Shown here: positions 9,323 through 17,896 of the stretch, one piece after another
How positions within the stretch are numbered: the first letter of the stretch is position 1
Layout: the number at the start of each line of letters is the position of its first letter
NCBI GenBank assembly: GCA_003670865.1
Contig: QWQJ01000002.1
Location: forward strand, 1 to 32,529
Reading direction: 5' to 3'
Origin: Planctomycetota bacterium
Lineage (GTDB): Bacteria > Planctomycetota > Planctomycetia > Pirellulales > UBA1268
DNA length: 32,529 bases
The notes under the pieces: generated by a model
Databases searched by the model: none
Told to the model about the DNA's origin: nothing
What the model saw: only the letters and a program-made list of their open reading frames with translations
Position numbers and translations under genes: made by a program

Positions 9323-9646
9323 ATGCCCCGAATTCCATTCAAGAATCTTACGCAGTCCGACGAAATGGCCGAAAAGCTAGAAATGAGCACGGCTGAAATT
9401 GGACTCTCTGTTCGCACGACTAATTGTCTTGAGGAAAAGGGAATCTTCACGGTTCACGATCTTCTTAATTGCACGCGAGCAGATTTACTCTCTATTTCAA
9501 ACTTTGGTGAAAAAACGCTCGAAGAGGTTTATCGGTCGCTTGAGAAAATTGGCTTCTATCGCGCAGCCCACACCTCCGGACCAAAATCGTCGCACATCGC
9601 TAATCCGGATTCGACAAAACAACGGGAAACCGTTGGGCAGATATAA
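9323..9646 (+). CDS. Stand-alone RNA polymerase alpha C-terminal-domain-like protein (~107 aa)
   Basis: IGLSVRTTNCLEEKGIFTVHDLLNCTRADLLSISNFGEKTLEEVYRSLEKIGF matches the alpha-CTD pattern (E. coli: [48 protein letters not shown]). ATG 9323 preceded by GGGAGGGA. No alpha-NTD is encoded. Confidence 0.85.
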   Translation: MPRIPFKNLTQSDEMAEKLEMSTAEIGLSVRTTNCLEEKGIFTVHDLLNCTRADLLSISNFGEKTLEEVYRSLEKIGFYRAAHTSGPKSSHIANPDSTKQRETVGQI

Positions 9647-9712: not shown

Positions 9713-11101
9713 GTGGCAGGTGGCCAAGGGAGACAGATTGTGAGGCTGCCGCGATTTTTTGGCAAAAAGCGCGGCCACAGACGCACCGGTTCGCAAGCGT
9801 GGGGCTCCTTTGGTGAAGGGCTCTTTTATTGTGTTTTGCTGGTTGCTGGCTTGGGCTTTGCCGGTCTTTTACTCTCTGGTGCCGCCGCGCCCGAATGGCG
9901 AGTCAACCATGAGTTCCTTGAGACGCCGTGCACGATTATCGGAAAGGGACTTGCGCGATACGCATCCCAAGAAGCCGATTCAGCAGGATCGTTCACCAAC
10001 AAATGGCAGCCATGCTTACGTCTGCGTTATCGAGTGGCCGGCGCCTTGCACGAATCGTGGAGTACGGCCTTGCCACGCAGTTCGCGTGCCGATCGGCCGA
10101 CAGCGATCGCGCAACTCGCCGCTTGGAGGCTGAATGATGAACTCACATGCTGGTACGACCCTGCCGATCCAAACAGCGTCGTGCTGGAGCGTGGCTATAA
10201 CTGGTGGCTGTGGTTGTTGATGCTCTTGCTGCCCGGAGCGCTCATCGTCTTCGGTGGATCGGGCTTAGTGCAGGCGATTCGTGTCTGGGGGAAATCCGAG
10301 GAGCATCGCGCCGCCTCCGCGGGCCTGCCGGAGATGCTTGATCCAATGGATCACTCCCCATCCGAGGCACCGGACCATCCGGGTGTTCCGATCTGTGACG
10401 ACCTTATCAATTCGCCAGGCACGATCCTGCGTTATCGACTGCCGATAGAAAGCCCGGAGAGTTGGACTCTCTTGGGGCTGGGTCTGTTTGCCATGCTCTG
10501 GAACGCCGTTGTTATTGTGCTGGCGGTGGGGGCAGGTCTTGATCTACTCGGCGGCACAATAGACTGGCTGCTCTTTGCCCTGCTGGTCCCATTTGTAGTC
10601 GTGGGAATTGCCAGCGTGTGTGTCTTTCTCAGGGGCCTTATTTTGGCAACGGCCGTTGGAACCACCCAGCTTGAAATTTCAGCGCACCCGCTTCGGCCCG
10701 GAGAGCAGTATGACGTTTTACTTGGACAGGGTGGCTCGGGCACGTTTCGCACACTGACAATGACCTTAGAATTGGTCGAACAGGCGACATTTCGACAGGG
10801 CACTGACACGCGAACGGAGCAGGTAGTGGTGTGGAAGGAGCAGGTGAACGCGTGGCACGATATTCACTTGGTTCCCAACGCTCGGTTCGAATCGCGAGTC
10901 AGGATCTTCATTCCGCACGATGCGATGCACTCGTTTACGTCAGAACACAACGCCGTGAATTGGAGGATTGTTGTGCATGGCTCGCCGGAGCGGTGGCCCG
11001 CATTCAGCAGGATTTTTCCTCTGATTGTCTTTCCCTCACAGATCGCTCCACTGGCATCGAAGGAACGGTCACATCGATCAAGACAAGAAGGTGTCTTATG
11101 A
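9713..11101 (+). CDS. DUF3592-like membrane protein
   Basis: TM segments plus TPCTIIGKG...LRLRYRVAG...ELTCWYDPADPNSVVLERG (DUF3592-like). The C-terminal region is beta-rich. Confidence 0.75.
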   Translation: MAGGQGRQIVRLPRFFGKKRGHRRTGSQAWGSFGEGLFYCVLLVAGLGFAGLLLSGAAAPEWRVNHEFLETPCTIIGKGLARYASQEADSAGSFTNKWQPCLRLRYRVAGALHESWSTALPRSSRADRPTAIAQLAAWRLNDELTCWYDPADPNSVVLERGYNWWLWLLMLLLPGALIVFGGSGLVQAIRVWGKSEEHRAASAGLPEMLDPMDHSPSEAPDHPGVPICDDLINSPGTILRYRLPIESPESWTLLGLGLFAMLWNAVVIVLAVGAGLDLLGGTIDWLLFALLVPFVVVGIASVCVFLRGLILATAVGTTQLEISAHPLRPGEQYDVLLGQGGSGTFRTLTMTLELVEQATFRQGTDTRTEQVVVWKEQVNAWHDIHLVPNARFESRVRIFIPHDAMHSFTSEHNAVNWRIVVHGSPERWPAFSRIFPLIVFPSQIAPLASKERSHRSRQEGVL

Positions 11102-11544
11102 GTCAGTCCAACCAAGCTCTTGTGGGCTCTCCTACTGTATCGGTGCATTTCGATCACTCGCATCGGCTCTATGAGCCACAGGCAAGGCTTACCGTTCGCT
11201 ACAGCATCGATGGTATCGCGGATGACGAACGAGTCCGTGCTGTCGAACTTTCTGTGCTTTGGTATACCGAAGGCAAGGGTGAAGAAGATTTGGGTGTGCA
11301 TTTTTTCGAACGCATGACTGACCGAGAGCGATTACCTCCAGCTGTTACCGTAGGATCTTTTGTCTCGTCCTTACCGCTTAGCCCACTTTCGTACGAAGGA
11401 TTGATTGTGAAGGTGCGTTGGTGTGTTCGCGTACGGCTTTTTTTTACCGACGGCCGGGACTTTGTCTCGGAGCACGTTTTTGAACTCGGAGAGATTCCAC
11501 CCGCCCAAACGAAGCCTGACGGGCCTGCCATAGTATCGGTATGA
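11098..11544 (+). CDS. Conserved-looking hypothetical protein, predicted all-beta (possibly arrestin-like) fold
   Basis: ATG at 11098 overlaps the upstream stop (ATGA). Contains PLSYEGLIVKVRWCVRVRLFFTDGRDFVSEHVFELGEIP. Confidence 0.65.
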   Translation: MSQSNQALVGSPTVSVHFDHSHRLYEPQARLTVRYSIDGIADDERVRAVELSVLWYTEGKGEEDLGVHFFERMTDRERLPPAVTVGSFVSSLPLSPLSYEGLIVKVRWCVRVRLFFTDGRDFVSEHVFELGEIPPAQTKPDGPAIVSV

Positions 11545-12227
11545 AGACTTTCACTCACACGCCACAGACTTCATCAGTTTTGCCGGAAACGGCTCCGCGG
11601 GCCTTTGGCAAGATCCCCGTCAATCCTTTTTCCACCCGATTGACCCGACCCGGTCAAATTGCCTCGCTGAATTGTGGCGGTCATTTCCTCAATCCAAACG
11701 ATCTTATCGACCGGCTGCAATTTTTAGGGGGAACTGCCGTCATTCAAGGTCCGCACGGCAGCGGCAAAACCACGCTGTTAATGCACCTGTCGCATGAACT
11801 GGCTAGTCGCGGTGATTTGGTGGCTTGTGTGCGATTGCGATCCTCTCGTGATGCCTTGGTTGTGTTTCGATCGATTATTCGATCCCGTCCCGGGACAACA
11901 CTATGCCTTGATAGCTGGGAACAGGCTGGCTTCATGCTTCGGAAAATCATCTGGTTGGCAGTCACTGTGCGCCGTTGCGGCCTGCTCGTCACGTGCCACC
12001 GCCCAACCACCATGCCTGTGCTGATGCAATGCCAGACAAGCCCACTCCTTCTCAAGCGTATTGTCGAACAACTGCCTAACCACGAGCAGAGACGATCCTC
12101 ACTCATTCACGAAGCAGATATTCAGGACGCCTTTTTAAAGTGTGGCGGCAACATTCGAGAGTCGCTCTACGATCTCTACGATCGTTTTGAACAGCGAGTC
12201 CGGCTGCACCCACACACACGGACGTAA
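11541..12227 (+). CDS. P-loop ATPase of unknown function
   Basis: ATG at 11541 overlaps the upstream stop (ATGA). Walker A GPHGSGKTT, candidate Walker B TLCLDSWE. Confidence 0.75.
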   Translation: MKTFTHTPQTSSVLPETAPRAFGKIPVNPFSTRLTRPGQIASLNCGGHFLNPNDLIDRLQFLGGTAVIQGPHGSGKTTLLMHLSHELASRGDLVACVRLRSSRDALVVFRSIIRSRPGTTLCLDSWEQAGFMLRKIIWLAVTVRRCGLLVTCHRPTTMPVLMQCQTSPLLLKRIVEQLPNHEQRRSSLIHEADIQDAFLKCGGNIRESLYDLYDRFEQRVRLHPHTRT

Positions 12228-12441
12228 GCCCGTTTGTCTGACTCAACGGAGTGCTCGAGCAGGACCAGAGACGGTTTTCAGCATCATTCAGGTGCCGGAT
12301 ATGACGGTCGAGCCTGCTGTGTCGGTCGTGCCGACATCAAATCAGAAATTCATGATTGAGAAAGATGTTTTTTTCGCAACCGCTCAAAGATGCAACCTAG
12401 GCTAGAAAGGTTCATGATAAACCTGTGTTGAGGAGTGAGTG

Positions 12442-13557
12442 ATGAAGACGCGAAAACTTCTGCTTGTGGTGTTATTGGCGAGTGGTGCAACTTCCGTGCG
12501 GCCGACTTCTTGTCAGGCACAGTGTTGCTTAAACGATCTCTTTGCCGGTTGTAGTTCGTGCTTTCGCAAAGCACCACAGCCGTTTGCCGCGGCTCCAATC
12601 ATGGCACCGCCCATGATGCCGGCTCCCATCATGGCACCAATTCCCGCTGTTCCGCAGCCGGTTGTCGTGCCTGTGCAACAGGTCAGCTATGTGCCAGAGA
12701 CAACCTACCGTACGCAGTATGAGTGCGTGCCGGTGACATCCTACAAGCCTTCCAGTGAAATCGATCCCTGCACGGGTTGCCCACGAGAATGTTCAGAACA
12801 GGTGACCAATTACGTACAGCGGGCTGTGAATGTGCCCTTCACGCAGTATCGCGCCGTCTACTCAACGAAATATGTGCAGATGCAGCCTGGCTACAACGCC
12901 GCTGCCCCTGGCGCACCTATTGTTGGTCCTGGTTCGGCGGGAGTAGCGGCGAGTCCATTTGCAGCGCCGGTGCAGTCCTCTCCACAGGCTTGGGGGGCCG
13001 CCGGAGCCGATGTTCCACAGCAACTCATTCCTGGCCAGCAGGCCATTGCCGCTCCAGCACTTCCGCCAGCCGGCATGCCTCAGCAGACATTTCAGCAACA
13101 GATCGTGCCGCAAAGTGGCACATACGCTACTCCGGTGCCAGCCAACCAACCGCAGCCCACGCTACCCCCAGCCCTCGCTCCCGCGCCATCGCTAAAGCCA
13201 ATCCCCGAACTACCACGGACCGTACCGAGTGGCAATGCAAGTGCGGCTGGATCGGCATCCCTTGCCAAACCATTTCCATCAGTTTCTCCTGCCCCCTCGG
13301 TGCCACTGCAGCCAGTTCCGTCAGGGGTTCAATCGCCGACTGGCGAATCGGGCGGCAACACCATGCCGATCCTTCCCGGCGCAGGCCCAGGCACATCGAC
13401 GGGGGCTTTTCCAAAACTGCTGGAGCCGACCGGCCACACAACATCGTGGCAGCCAGCTCGCTCATTCGACCAAAGCCCAACTCGCATAGCAATCACGCCG
13501 GTATCGTATCCTTCTGCGTACCCTACCGCAGCCCTCCCCACCCGCGGGCAACAGTAG
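12442..13557 (+). CDS. Secreted Pro/Ala-rich low-complexity protein with a Cys-containing N-terminal domain
   Basis: Signal peptide MKTRKLLLVVLLASGATSVRPTSCQAQ, APIMAP repeats, VPETTYRTQYECVPVTSYKPSSEIDPCTGCPRECSEQ, long P/A/Q-rich tail. GAGGAG upstream. Confidence 0.75.
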   Translation: MKTRKLLLVVLLASGATSVRPTSCQAQCCLNDLFAGCSSCFRKAPQPFAAAPIMAPPMMPAPIMAPIPAVPQPVVVPVQQVSYVPETTYRTQYECVPVTSYKPSSEIDPCTGCPRECSEQVTNYVQRAVNVPFTQYRAVYSTKYVQMQPGYNAAAPGAPIVGPGSAGVAASPFAAPVQSSPQAWGAAGADVPQQLIPGQQAIAAPALPPAGMPQQTFQQQIVPQSGTYATPVPANQPQPTLPPALAPAPSLKPIPELPRTVPSGNASAAGSASLAKPFPSVSPAPSVPLQPVPSGVQSPTGESGGNTMPILPGAGPGTSTGAFPKLLEPTGHTTSWQPARSFDQSPTRIAITPVSYPSAYPTAALPTRGQQ

Positions 13558-15545: not shown

Positions 15546-15568
15546 TAAAGCGAGGGTGAGTCGCTTTA
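15546..15568. terminator. Hairpin between convergent polX and FGE genes
   Basis: Perfect inverted repeat TAAAGCGA-GGGTGAG-TCGCTTTA. Its right arm contains the - strand stop codon of the FGE gene. Confidence 0.45.
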
Positions 15569-16705
15569 CTGAGGAGTCACTGTGCTTGGCTTCACACAGC
15601 GGAAGCCGATGTGATTGCATCCGGATGAGATCTCACCTTTGCCTCGCGTGCCCACGATATAACGGGCACAGTATTGCTCGGAGCACAGGAAAGAACCGCC
15701 GCGGAGGACGCGTTTAGACTGCTCCGGCTCCTGTGGATCGAAGCTCTCGCGTGGGCCTTTGGGATTGCGTATCAGGCGGCCGCCGGACCTCACTTCGGTC
15801 GCATAGCTATCGGGTCTGTACCAGTCGCAACACCACTCCCAGACGTTGCCAGAGACATCAAAAAGACCATATCCATTGGCTGGAAATGATGCCACCGGCG
15901 ACACTCCTTCATAGCCGTCTTCACCGGTATTCTCGGTGGGAAAAGATCCCTGCCATGTATTGGCCAGCCAGCGACCGGCCGGGCGAAAATCATTGCCCCA
16001 CGGATAAAGCGATCCTGAAAGTCCCCCCCTAGCGGCACATTCCCATTCTGCTTCCGTCGGCAATCGCTTGCCGGCCCACATCGCAAATGCCTCGGCATCC
16101 TCATAGGCGATGTGGACAACAGGATCATTATCATGTTTTTCAATGGAACTGTCGGGGCCGGTTGGATGACGCCAATTGACGCCGGGGAGATAATTCCACC
16201 AGCGATAATGATCCTCAAGGGAGATTTTTTCTGCCGGTGGCGCAAAAACAATGGAGCCAGCTAACAGATTCTCTGGTGCTGCCCCCGGAAAGTCTTCTGC
16301 CTTCGGCTTCCGTTCAGCAACCGTGACGTAGTTGGTTTCTTTCACAAAAATGGCGAACTGTGCGTTGGTCACTTCAGTCTTGTCGATCCAGAAGCTATCC
16401 AGACTTACAGTATGGATTGGTCGAGCGTCGTTCATAGGATCGGGGCCGCCAAACGGTTTGCTTCGAGGGTCTGCACAGCCCATCAAAAATTCACCGCCGG
16501 CTATCCACGCCATGCCTGCTGGAGCTTGCTCCGTGGGCTGCGGGATTTGGACGTGGGTAGCTGTGAACACTGCGGCAGATCGCTCGGGAGGCGATTGAAA
16601 AACCATTGCCAGACGGATCAAACCCCACACGCCCAAAGCAGCACCGATCCCAATTAGGATCTGCCAGATAAGTGAACTGGACGGTTGATGAACAGGCGCC
16701 TTCAT
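15566..16705 (-). CDS. Formylglycine-generating enzyme (SUMF1 family), N-terminally membrane-anchored
   Basis: MAWIAGGEFLMGCADP, DSFWIDKTEVTNAQFAIFVKET, RLPTEAEWECAARGG, DVSGNVWEWCCDWY, RVLRGGSFLCSEQYCARYIVGTRG...NHIGFRC. One N-terminal TM. Confidence 0.92.
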   Translation of the reverse strand: MKAPVHQPSSSLIWQILIGIGAALGVWGLIRLAMVFQSPPERSAAVFTATHVQIPQPTEQAPAGMAWIAGGEFLMGCADPRSKPFGGPDPMNDARPIHTVSLDSFWIDKTEVTNAQFAIFVKETNYVTVAERKPKAEDFPGAAPENLLAGSIVFAPPAEKISLEDHYRWWNYLPGVNWRHPTGPDSSIEKHDNDPVVHIAYEDAEAFAMWAGKRLPTEAEWECAARGGLSGSLYPWGNDFRPAGRWLANTWQGSFPTENTGEDGYEGVSPVASFPANGYGLFDVSGNVWEWCCDWYRPDSYATEVRSGGRLIRNPKGPRESFDPQEPEQSKRVLRGGSFLCSEQYCARYIVGTRGKGEISSGCNHIGFRCVKPSTVTPQ

Positions 16706-16732: not shown

Positions 16733-17704
16733 CTATGCCGAACGGCACTGAAGCATGAGTCCGAGGCGGCGCTGTAGCTTGAGGCGACGCTTTGGGGTCC
16801 ACCATTTTAAAAACTCTTTACGCGAGTGATGAGCGAGCAACAATTCTTCATGGCAGAGTTGGGCAAGAAATTCACGGTTGGCTAAGGCACCAGTATTTTC
16901 CGACAATCGCTTAAAACGACCCGCGGCTGCGCAATGGTCAGTGAAGTCTCCCAGCATTTTTTGCAACTGCTCGAGGGATTCGTAGCAGCGGGTACGCACT
17001 TTGATTGGAAACACCGTGGCGAAAATTTCCATCGCGTAGCGAAGCTGCTTGCCTTCAATGCGCAGTTGGTGAATCTCATTGCTGTCATCAATCGATTGAT
17101 CAGCAATTTTGAAAAACTGCTTAACCATCGGCTTGAAGTTTTGTTGGGCATAGCGACCACAGCTAGGTTTTTTTCCGCCTGAAGAAAGGCTCTCAAGAAG
17201 TTTCTCCATGCGACCAAGCCAGTCGTCTCCAAGCAGTGCTTCGTACTGCTCTCGGATCGGCTGCCTTGAGACATCCCGCTGCTTTGAGAGCATCGCCACG
17301 AGCCGGCTGCGAGCCTTGCTGCCGTCAGTCCGACACGACAGGGTGCCATGAGCCACCAGCCTATTGGTGGCAACAGGTGCTGTGCCGGCCAAGTGGTCAG
17401 TAAGCACATCCAGATCACGGGCTTCTCCGGCTGCACGACGAATGCGATGGAGTTGTTTTCTAAACCATGATCTCTGCTTGCGTGGTAGAAGGGCATGAAA
17501 AGCTTTCATGGCAACAAGGGCTCGTCTGGTTGCCACGCGGAGAGAATGCACGCGACCGGGATCAGATGCGTTGTCGCAGTAGGCAGCTTTGAGACCAGAC
17601 CAGACAGCTTCCAGGCGTTTACGAAGAGTCTTTGCGGCCACTCGCGCAACTGGGGTGTGTGCAGTATCAATGACGGCCCATTGCCCTGAAATTGCCATGC
17701 TCAT
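16733..17704 (-). CDS. CHAD domain-containing protein
   Basis: VHSLRVATRRALVAMKAFHALLP, IRRAAGEARDLDVLTDHL and HQLRIEGKQLRYAMEIFA are CHAD hallmarks. ATG at 17704 preferred over the longer ORF. Confidence 0.88.
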   Translation of the reverse strand: MSMAISGQWAVIDTAHTPVARVAAKTLRKRLEAVWSGLKAAYCDNASDPGRVHSLRVATRRALVAMKAFHALLPRKQRSWFRKQLHRIRRAAGEARDLDVLTDHLAGTAPVATNRLVAHGTLSCRTDGSKARSRLVAMLSKQRDVSRQPIREQYEALLGDDWLGRMEKLLESLSSGGKKPSCGRYAQQNFKPMVKQFFKIADQSIDDSNEIHQLRIEGKQLRYAMEIFATVFPIKVRTRCYESLEQLQKMLGDFTDHCAAAGRFKRLSENTGALANREFLAQLCHEELLLAHHSRKEFLKWWTPKRRLKLQRRLGLMLQCRSA

Positions 17705-17896
17705 TATTCTCGGCGGGCCTTTATCGACAACGCTTGAACATTCGCAAAGCGTGCACCATTCAAGAGTCCGTTTGGGAACCCTATTTTCTCTCGCTGTTAC
17801 CCTTGAGTCTACTCTCCATCGATTCGTGGATTCCAGACTCCGCAAGAAAATCGGCAGTAACAATCTAATTCGCACTCACGCGCGGCGATCGGGCAC

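Follow-up and report, generated by a model that had tools for sequence, protein, structure and literature searches.

Introduction

Arrestin adaptors are best known from eukaryotic cells. In a survey of the arrestin clan, Spo0M was the only prokaryotic family found (PMC2515105). The same survey looked for single-domain arrestins as the possible ancestral, unduplicated form, and reported that single-domain proteins were not the sole form in any kingdom or species (PMC2515105). A literature search, with most subscription papers outside its coverage, returned no earlier description of the three-gene unit analysed here and no use of the phrase 'bacterial arrestin'. In the literature searched, DUF3592 was mentioned only in an unrelated context.

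The DNA analysed here, referred to as the window, is a stretch of 32,529 nucleotides from a bacterium of the order Pirellulales (contig QWQJ01000002.1; source assembly 2.29 Mb, 81% complete). Among named records, the nearest relatives are planctomycete assemblies from metagenomes, which carry the labels Planctomycetaceae, Planctomycetia or Pirellulales. An earlier note on this DNA proposed that three overlapping genes, here termed P1, P2 and P3, encode an uncharacterised machine comprising a DUF3592 membrane protein, a beta-rich partner and an ATPase. From the analysis of these genes and their relatives (genomes and loci carry G and L numbers), it appears that bacteria possess arrestin adaptors in a membrane-anchored form made of two parts.

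Gene Layout of the Locus

The three open reading frames and both ATGA overlaps were present at the positions given in the earlier note (Table 1), with the exception of the P1 start. The P1 frame opens at 9713, which had been taken as the beginning of the gene. The likely start is GTG 9740, as an SD-like AAGGGAGA (9726-9733) lies 6 nt ahead of this codon and most P1 relatives start at V/M-R-L-P-R-F-F, which corresponds to it. Given their recurrence in relatives, the overlaps are not due to chance. The P2/P3 overlap recurs less often than the P1/P2 overlap, and the coupling of P2 to P3 therefore looks looser. Promoter and terminator scans gave a signal no higher than the shuffled level. A search of NCBIfam yielded no informative name.

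Table 1. Features of the three-gene locus, in window coordinates.
Feature	Position	Strand	Description and basis
P1	9740..11101	+	Four-TM membrane protein, DUF3592 and C-terminal arrestin-like domain (predicted); ORF opens 9713
P1 TM helix 1	9794..9886	+	AlphaFold helix 28-67; strongly positive N-terminus before it (KKRGHRRTG)
P1 DUF3592 beta domain, predicted extracytoplasmic, between TM1 and TM2	9887..10198	+	Pfam and model
P1 TM helix 2	10199..10285	+	Model helix 164-191
P1 TM helices 3 and 4, short loop between	10454..10657	+	Model helices 248-279 and 285-315
P1C, arrestin-like domain, predicted cytoplasmic	10658..11038	+	Conserved QGTDTRTE and IPxxAMHSFxSxHNxVxW; Foldseek and model
P1/P2 stop/start overlap, ATGA	11098..11101	+	Sequence; exact 4-nt overlap in 36/45 order loci with all three genes and 63/78 named loci
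P2	11098..11544	+	Putatively one arrestin-like lobe; WxTxGxG and LPxSPLSYxGxIVKIxWCVRVR conserved
P2/P3 stop/start overlap, ATGA	11541..11544	+	Sequence; exact 4-nt overlap in 18/45 order loci and 38/72 named loci
P3	11541..12227	+	Small predicted AAA+/STAND-type NTPase
P3 NPF motif (NPFsTRxxRPG tail)	11622..11630	+	Invariant in 59 sequences
P3 Walker A, GPHGSGKT	11748..11771	+	H72, G73, G75 and K76 invariant, G70 in >=90% (59 sequences)
P3 Walker B, LCLDSWEQ (wider order: DGYEQL)	11901..11924	+	D124 invariant; E127 in >=90%
P3 Arg206, in GN(L/I)RExLFxLYD	12156..12158	+	Invariant; helix 205-222; sensor-2-like position in C-terminal helix, putative role

Conservation, Synteny and Loss

The 59 genomes of the order yielded P1 and P3 in 54 cases each and P2 in 51, mostly as single copies; these locus counts rest on draft assemblies and, as the genomes are related to each other, do not equal independent events. 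Loci carrying all three genes are always contiguous, in one gene order and on one strand. The proposal of a multi-gene system thus agrees with the distribution of the genes, which occur together in approximately 20 families within Pirellulales and also in other planctomycete classes. The named loci number 80, with that of Blastopirellula marina DSM 3645 (L190) among them, and P1 adjoins P2 in 78 of the 80. P3 lies apart from P1-P2 in at least four genomes (G032, G039, G048 and G057), the contigs of which place it elsewhere. An exceptional arrangement was present in G043, with P1 and P3 on opposite strands of one contig and P2 on a different contig. The operon is well supported.

Within one genus, four genomes (G013, G021, G027 and G034) contain none of the three genes; the sole match, in G027, is weak and of a generic ATPase kind. 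At the empty site, the genes encoding the RNA polymerase alpha-CTD-like and proline-rich proteins described below are separated by a few hundred bases, with UvrD and PolX on either side, and no trace of P1-P3 was identified there. This co-loss means that the P1-P3 block, no more and no less, was cleanly deleted at least once. The unit is also absent from the single-contig genome G040, except for a weak P1-like match. G017 was not counted as a further loss: the unit is absent, but the flanking region is missing too.

Divergent second copies were observed in two genomes. G036 carries a second P1-P2-P3 set with a short P1 (L093:6685-8461), and G043 carries a second P1-P2 pair (L102:6649-8176), the P2 of which is closer to the Pfam arrestin models. 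L153 had the appearance of a P1-P2 fusion by tblastn and was rejected, as stops lie between P1 and P2.

Several neighbouring genes were noted. A small stand-alone protein upstream of the operon (9323-9646, +) consists almost entirely of an RNA polymerase alpha C-terminal domain (PF03118, 2.2e-19), and a gene of this kind is kept upstream in many relatives. Downstream, 12439-13557 (+) encodes a secreted proline-rich protein with a conserved YVPxTxYRxx region and no Pfam match. The proline-rich gene adjoins P3 in many genomes, including two (G039 and G057) in which P3 lies apart from P1-P2. A frequent close neighbour on the upstream side of P1 is a PQQ-type beta-propeller gene, in most cases oriented divergently (L184:2083-3894, -; also 21 further loci of the order). 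Further along the window, a CHAD-domain protein (16733-17875, -; PF05235, 1.1e-32) lies beside an FGE-sulfatase-type protein (15566-16705). The recurrent neighbours (UvrD, alpha-CTD-like, PolX, proline-rich secreted and PQQ-type propeller proteins) did not suggest a pathway.

Distribution in the Phylum

P2 was found in 28 of 244 genomes from across the phylum, and in 27 of these 28, P1 or P1C sequence adjoined it or was part of the same open reading frame. In 20 phylum loci read in detail, P3 was adjacent to P1-P2 in 14. P1-P2 occur without an adjoining P3 in one family of the class (L255 and L261). The search of plasmids identified no P1 relative.

Two types of fusion were present. P1 is followed by P2 in one open reading frame in L117 (617 aa) and L247 (738 aa). 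In L242, L243, L244 (two copies), L245, L246 and L248, P2 is joined through two TM helices to P1C. In L243 and L245 a P3 homologue lies just upstream; its overlap with the beginning of the fused gene is 14 nt in L243 and 8 nt in L245. The fused two-lobe proteins of L244 (1345-2865 and 2960-4594) and L245 (3960-5900) bear an extra C-terminal domain. A P2 homologue in L257 (4905-5498, -) has an N-terminal leader (MPTYKYEAMDAEGREAKGQLEAAS...) that looks similar to the N-terminus of type II secretion platform proteins; Pfam, consulted for a known secretion domain, gave no match for the leader.

Membrane Part and Predicted Topology of P1

The assignment of the first gene as a DUF3592 membrane protein held: residues 86-162 of P1 match PF12158 with 35.5 bits, above the curated cut-off of 25.3. 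The AlphaFold model has a mean pLDDT of 86 and contains four TM helices. Residues 1-30 include eight Lys/Arg and no Asp/Glu, and on account of this strong positive charge before TM1 the N-terminus is predicted to be cytoplasmic. The charged N-terminus, taken with the four helices, predicts that both ends of P1 are cytoplasmic and that DUF3592 is outside. P1C would then lie on the same side of the membrane as P2 and P3.

Several P1 relatives (L065, L070, L072, L076, L081, L083, L084 and others) lack residues ~60-147, which correspond to the DUF3592 domain, and keep the TM helices and the arrestin domain. As read from these sequences, the absence is a modular loss. The N-terminal arrangement of P1, a beta domain between two TM helices (9887-10285), is structurally similar to the beta subunits of BK channels (CaKB; ~1e-7). 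However, the Pfam CaKB match of P1 is weak (E 0.021) and the rmsd is high, and the likeness is probably one of fold only. The DUF3592 family (PF12158) shares only the outside domain with P1, and the arrestin-like C-terminus falls outside that family.

Arrestin-Like Lobe of P1 and Putative Lobe of P2

The C-terminal segment of P1, described in the earlier note as beta-rich, is real and models as an arrestin fold, with a pLDDT of ~95 (mostly 90-98). The best Foldseek matches in the PDB were the N-lobe of ARRDC3 (1.5e-8), B. subtilis Spo0M (5cl2; 7.2e-8), TXNIP and the beta-arrestins, with VPS26C and Rgp1 among the lower matches. The arrestin fold of the P1C model is well supported.

P2 alone had no Pfam family match. 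Its relatives matched Arrestin_N in 20/58 cases (best 2.9e-5) and Arrestin_C in 16/58, and three of them showed weak Vps26 matches. Searched against the PDB, a P2 profile reached E 0.0025 with two divergent paralogues included; with the paralogues left out, every match was an arrestin, at a best E of only 0.4. As the latter match is weak, the assignment of P2 rests on the route through the fused proteins. These single-chain Planctomycetota proteins reached Pfam E values as low as 7.8e-18 for Arrestin_N and 9.2e-13 for Arrestin_C. For Spo0M the value was 4e-11, and only L242 was above the cut-off. P2 matched the N-lobe of the fused proteins (E 4.9e-16) and P1C the C-lobe (E 1.6e-19), and the N-lobe and C-lobe matched each other (E 1.7e-5). 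The direct profile comparison of P1C with P2 showed no match, and the link between them is seen only via the fused relatives. By these profile matches, both lobes of the single-chain arrestin-like proteins have homologues in the window, the N-lobe in P2 and the C-lobe in P1C, and P2 is a putative arrestin-like lobe.

The beta-rich regions thus did not prove to be unrelated folds, P1C having the arrestin fold and both P1C and P2 being, by these comparisons, related to arrestin lobes. P2 had been suggested to carry an arrestin- or Spo0M-like pattern similar to that of P1. The beta-rich stretch of P2 is real, and the arrestin part of the suggestion is supported by homology to the fused N-lobe; neither P1 nor P2 of the window matches the Spo0M family (PF07070). 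A conserved WYTEGKGEED loop in P2 follows a strand aligned with KVLW of TXNIP. This would place the loop roughly at the position of the arrestin finger loop, as a candidate contact with P1 or with a client.

P3 NTPase

The motif GPHGSGKTT, from which P3 had been called a small ATPase, is present, and in the AlphaFold model (228 aa, pLDDT 91.7) the P-loop domain is compact and carries a helical lid. The nearest Foldseek matches were RFC, ORC and Hda-like AAA+ folds (E ~1e-5). Pfam matches of P3 to AAA and STAND families were weak, and included AAA_22 and AAA_16. Across the P3 family, NACHT was matched in 31/33 and nSTAND5 in 26/33 at E up to 0.1, with the window P3 below both cut-offs. The elements that characterise AAA+ proteins (P-loop core, helical lid, Walker A and Walker B) were all found in P3, which models as a compact AAA+/STAND-type NTPase. 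The NTPase motifs are intact: with Lys76, Asp124 and Arg206 invariant and Glu127 present in >=90% of 59 sequences, P3 is likely to be an active NTPase. There were no added repeat or effector domains in the 228 aa model, which comprises only the NTPase and its lid.

Proposed Mechanism and Alternative Explanations

We favour the explanation that P1-P3 form one membrane-associated complex in which a split arrestin is switched by an ATPase, and consider this close to an even call, falling slightly on the doubtful side. P1 would span the inner membrane four times, with DUF3592 outside the cytoplasm and the P1C lobe inside. P2, made as a free second lobe by coupled translation, would pair with P1C to give a two-lobed clasp at the inner membrane face. 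The clasp may bind the cytoplasmic part of a client, either a membrane protein or the helices of P1 itself, as arrestins and Vps26 do. P3 would dock on the clasp, and the binding or hydrolysis of ATP could move the clasp from one binding state to another, perhaps according to what P1 detects on the outer side. As the DUF3592 domain is missing from several P1 relatives, outside sensing would not be universal. P3 may likewise not be obligatory, since P1-P2 lack an adjoining P3 in L255 and L261 and P3 is unlinked in G032, G039, G048 and G057. The wider proposal, that a sensory membrane protein with one arrestin lobe, a free second lobe and, as the driving part, a dedicated AAA+/STAND ATPase constitute an undescribed bacterial machine, inherited from the ancestor of Pirellulales and found in several planctomycete classes, is put forward tentatively and with somewhat more doubt than belief.

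The same unlinked and missing P3 genes could mean that P1 and P2 are an arrestin-like adaptor and that P3 is a neighbour which shares their transcript and has a separate job. P3 stays by the proline-rich gene in two of the four unlinked cases (G039 and G057), is the most divergent of the three proteins, and has the less conserved overlap, all of which would fit. However, P3 adjoins P1-P2 in other classes too, and in L243 and L245 it overlaps the start of the P2-P1C fusion despite the rearranged architecture; a separate job for P3 is considered unlikely. It is more unlikely still that P3 is an assembly ATPase of the GspA/ExeA kind in a unit that builds a secretion or pilus apparatus, and we give this very little weight. 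The N-terminal NPF motif, the weak AAA_22/AAA_16 matches and the leader of the L257 P2, with its presumed resemblance to type II secretion platform proteins, point in this direction, but P3 has no peptidoglycan-binding or membrane part and ends after the lid, no secretion genes recur beside the unit, and the leader is not recognised by Pfam.

Two further explanations start from the structural matches of P1C. If the unit were a regulator of the cell envelope or division akin to Spo0M, P1-P2 would dock on division or envelope-synthesis proteins. Many Planctomycetota are not known to carry FtsZ, the window proteins have no Spo0M family match, and Spo0M is a single chain without a DUF3592 or ATPase partner. 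These points make such a role rather improbable, against the similarity of P1C to the B. subtilis Spo0M structure (E 7e-8), the Pfam Spo0M match of a fused relative (4e-11) and the co-precipitation of Spo0M with FtsZ and ZapA (PMC5325327). The lower P1C matches to VPS26C and Rgp1, and the weak Pfam Vps26 matches of three P2 relatives, could indicate that the unit serves in vesicle sorting or as a kind of coat, in analogy to retromer/Vps26, to bend or sort the inner membrane. Elaborate inner membranes are a feature of Planctomycetota and would suit such a system. However, no Vps35- or Vps29-like gene recurs at the loci, P1C matches alpha-arrestins and Spo0M better, and there was no sign of polymerisation; we therefore regard it as very unlikely.

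Comparison with Known Systems

The unit resembles the alpha-arrestins (ARRDC3, TXNIP) and beta-arrestins in the fold of P1C, in the Arrestin_N/C similarity of the P2 relatives and in a total of two lobes. It differs from them in that the lobes lie on two proteins, one of which is membrane-anchored, and in the coupling to an ATPase. The tandem lobes of arrestins form a single chain, whereas in the window they are encoded by separate genes and are fused only in some relatives; the PPxY motif of alpha-arrestins was absent from P1, P2 and P3. P1C matches the crystal structure of Spo0M (PF07070; 5cl2), but Spo0M is one chain and has no DUF3592 or AAA+ partner. As neither the tandem-lobe chain nor a Spo0M family match was found in the window, the unit is placed in neither the arrestin nor the Spo0M family, and at most, by analogy, it may work as an arrestin adaptor. 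Vps26 and VPS26C are similar in fold to P1C, and three P2 relatives have weak Pfam matches to Vps26; the window system, in contrast, is split and membrane-anchored, and no Vps35 or Vps29 equivalents were identified among its recurrent neighbours. P3 shares its modelled fold, Walker A and B and the sensor-2-like Arg with AAA+/STAND NTPases (RFC, ORC, Hda, NACHT), yet is minimal, being without DNA-binding, repeat or effector domains.

With single lobes on coupled genes and fused versions in related bacteria, the order in which arrestin lobes were split, fused and duplicated is now testable. The results provide a first hypothesis for DUF3592-bearing proteins and point to a putative complex, conserved and so far undescribed, in bacteria of a phylum noted for the unusual nature of its membranes. 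If the wider proposal is true, the unit would amount to an arrestin system of prokaryotes that ATP drives through its cycle, and no known arrestin, retromer or Spo0M system would be like it.
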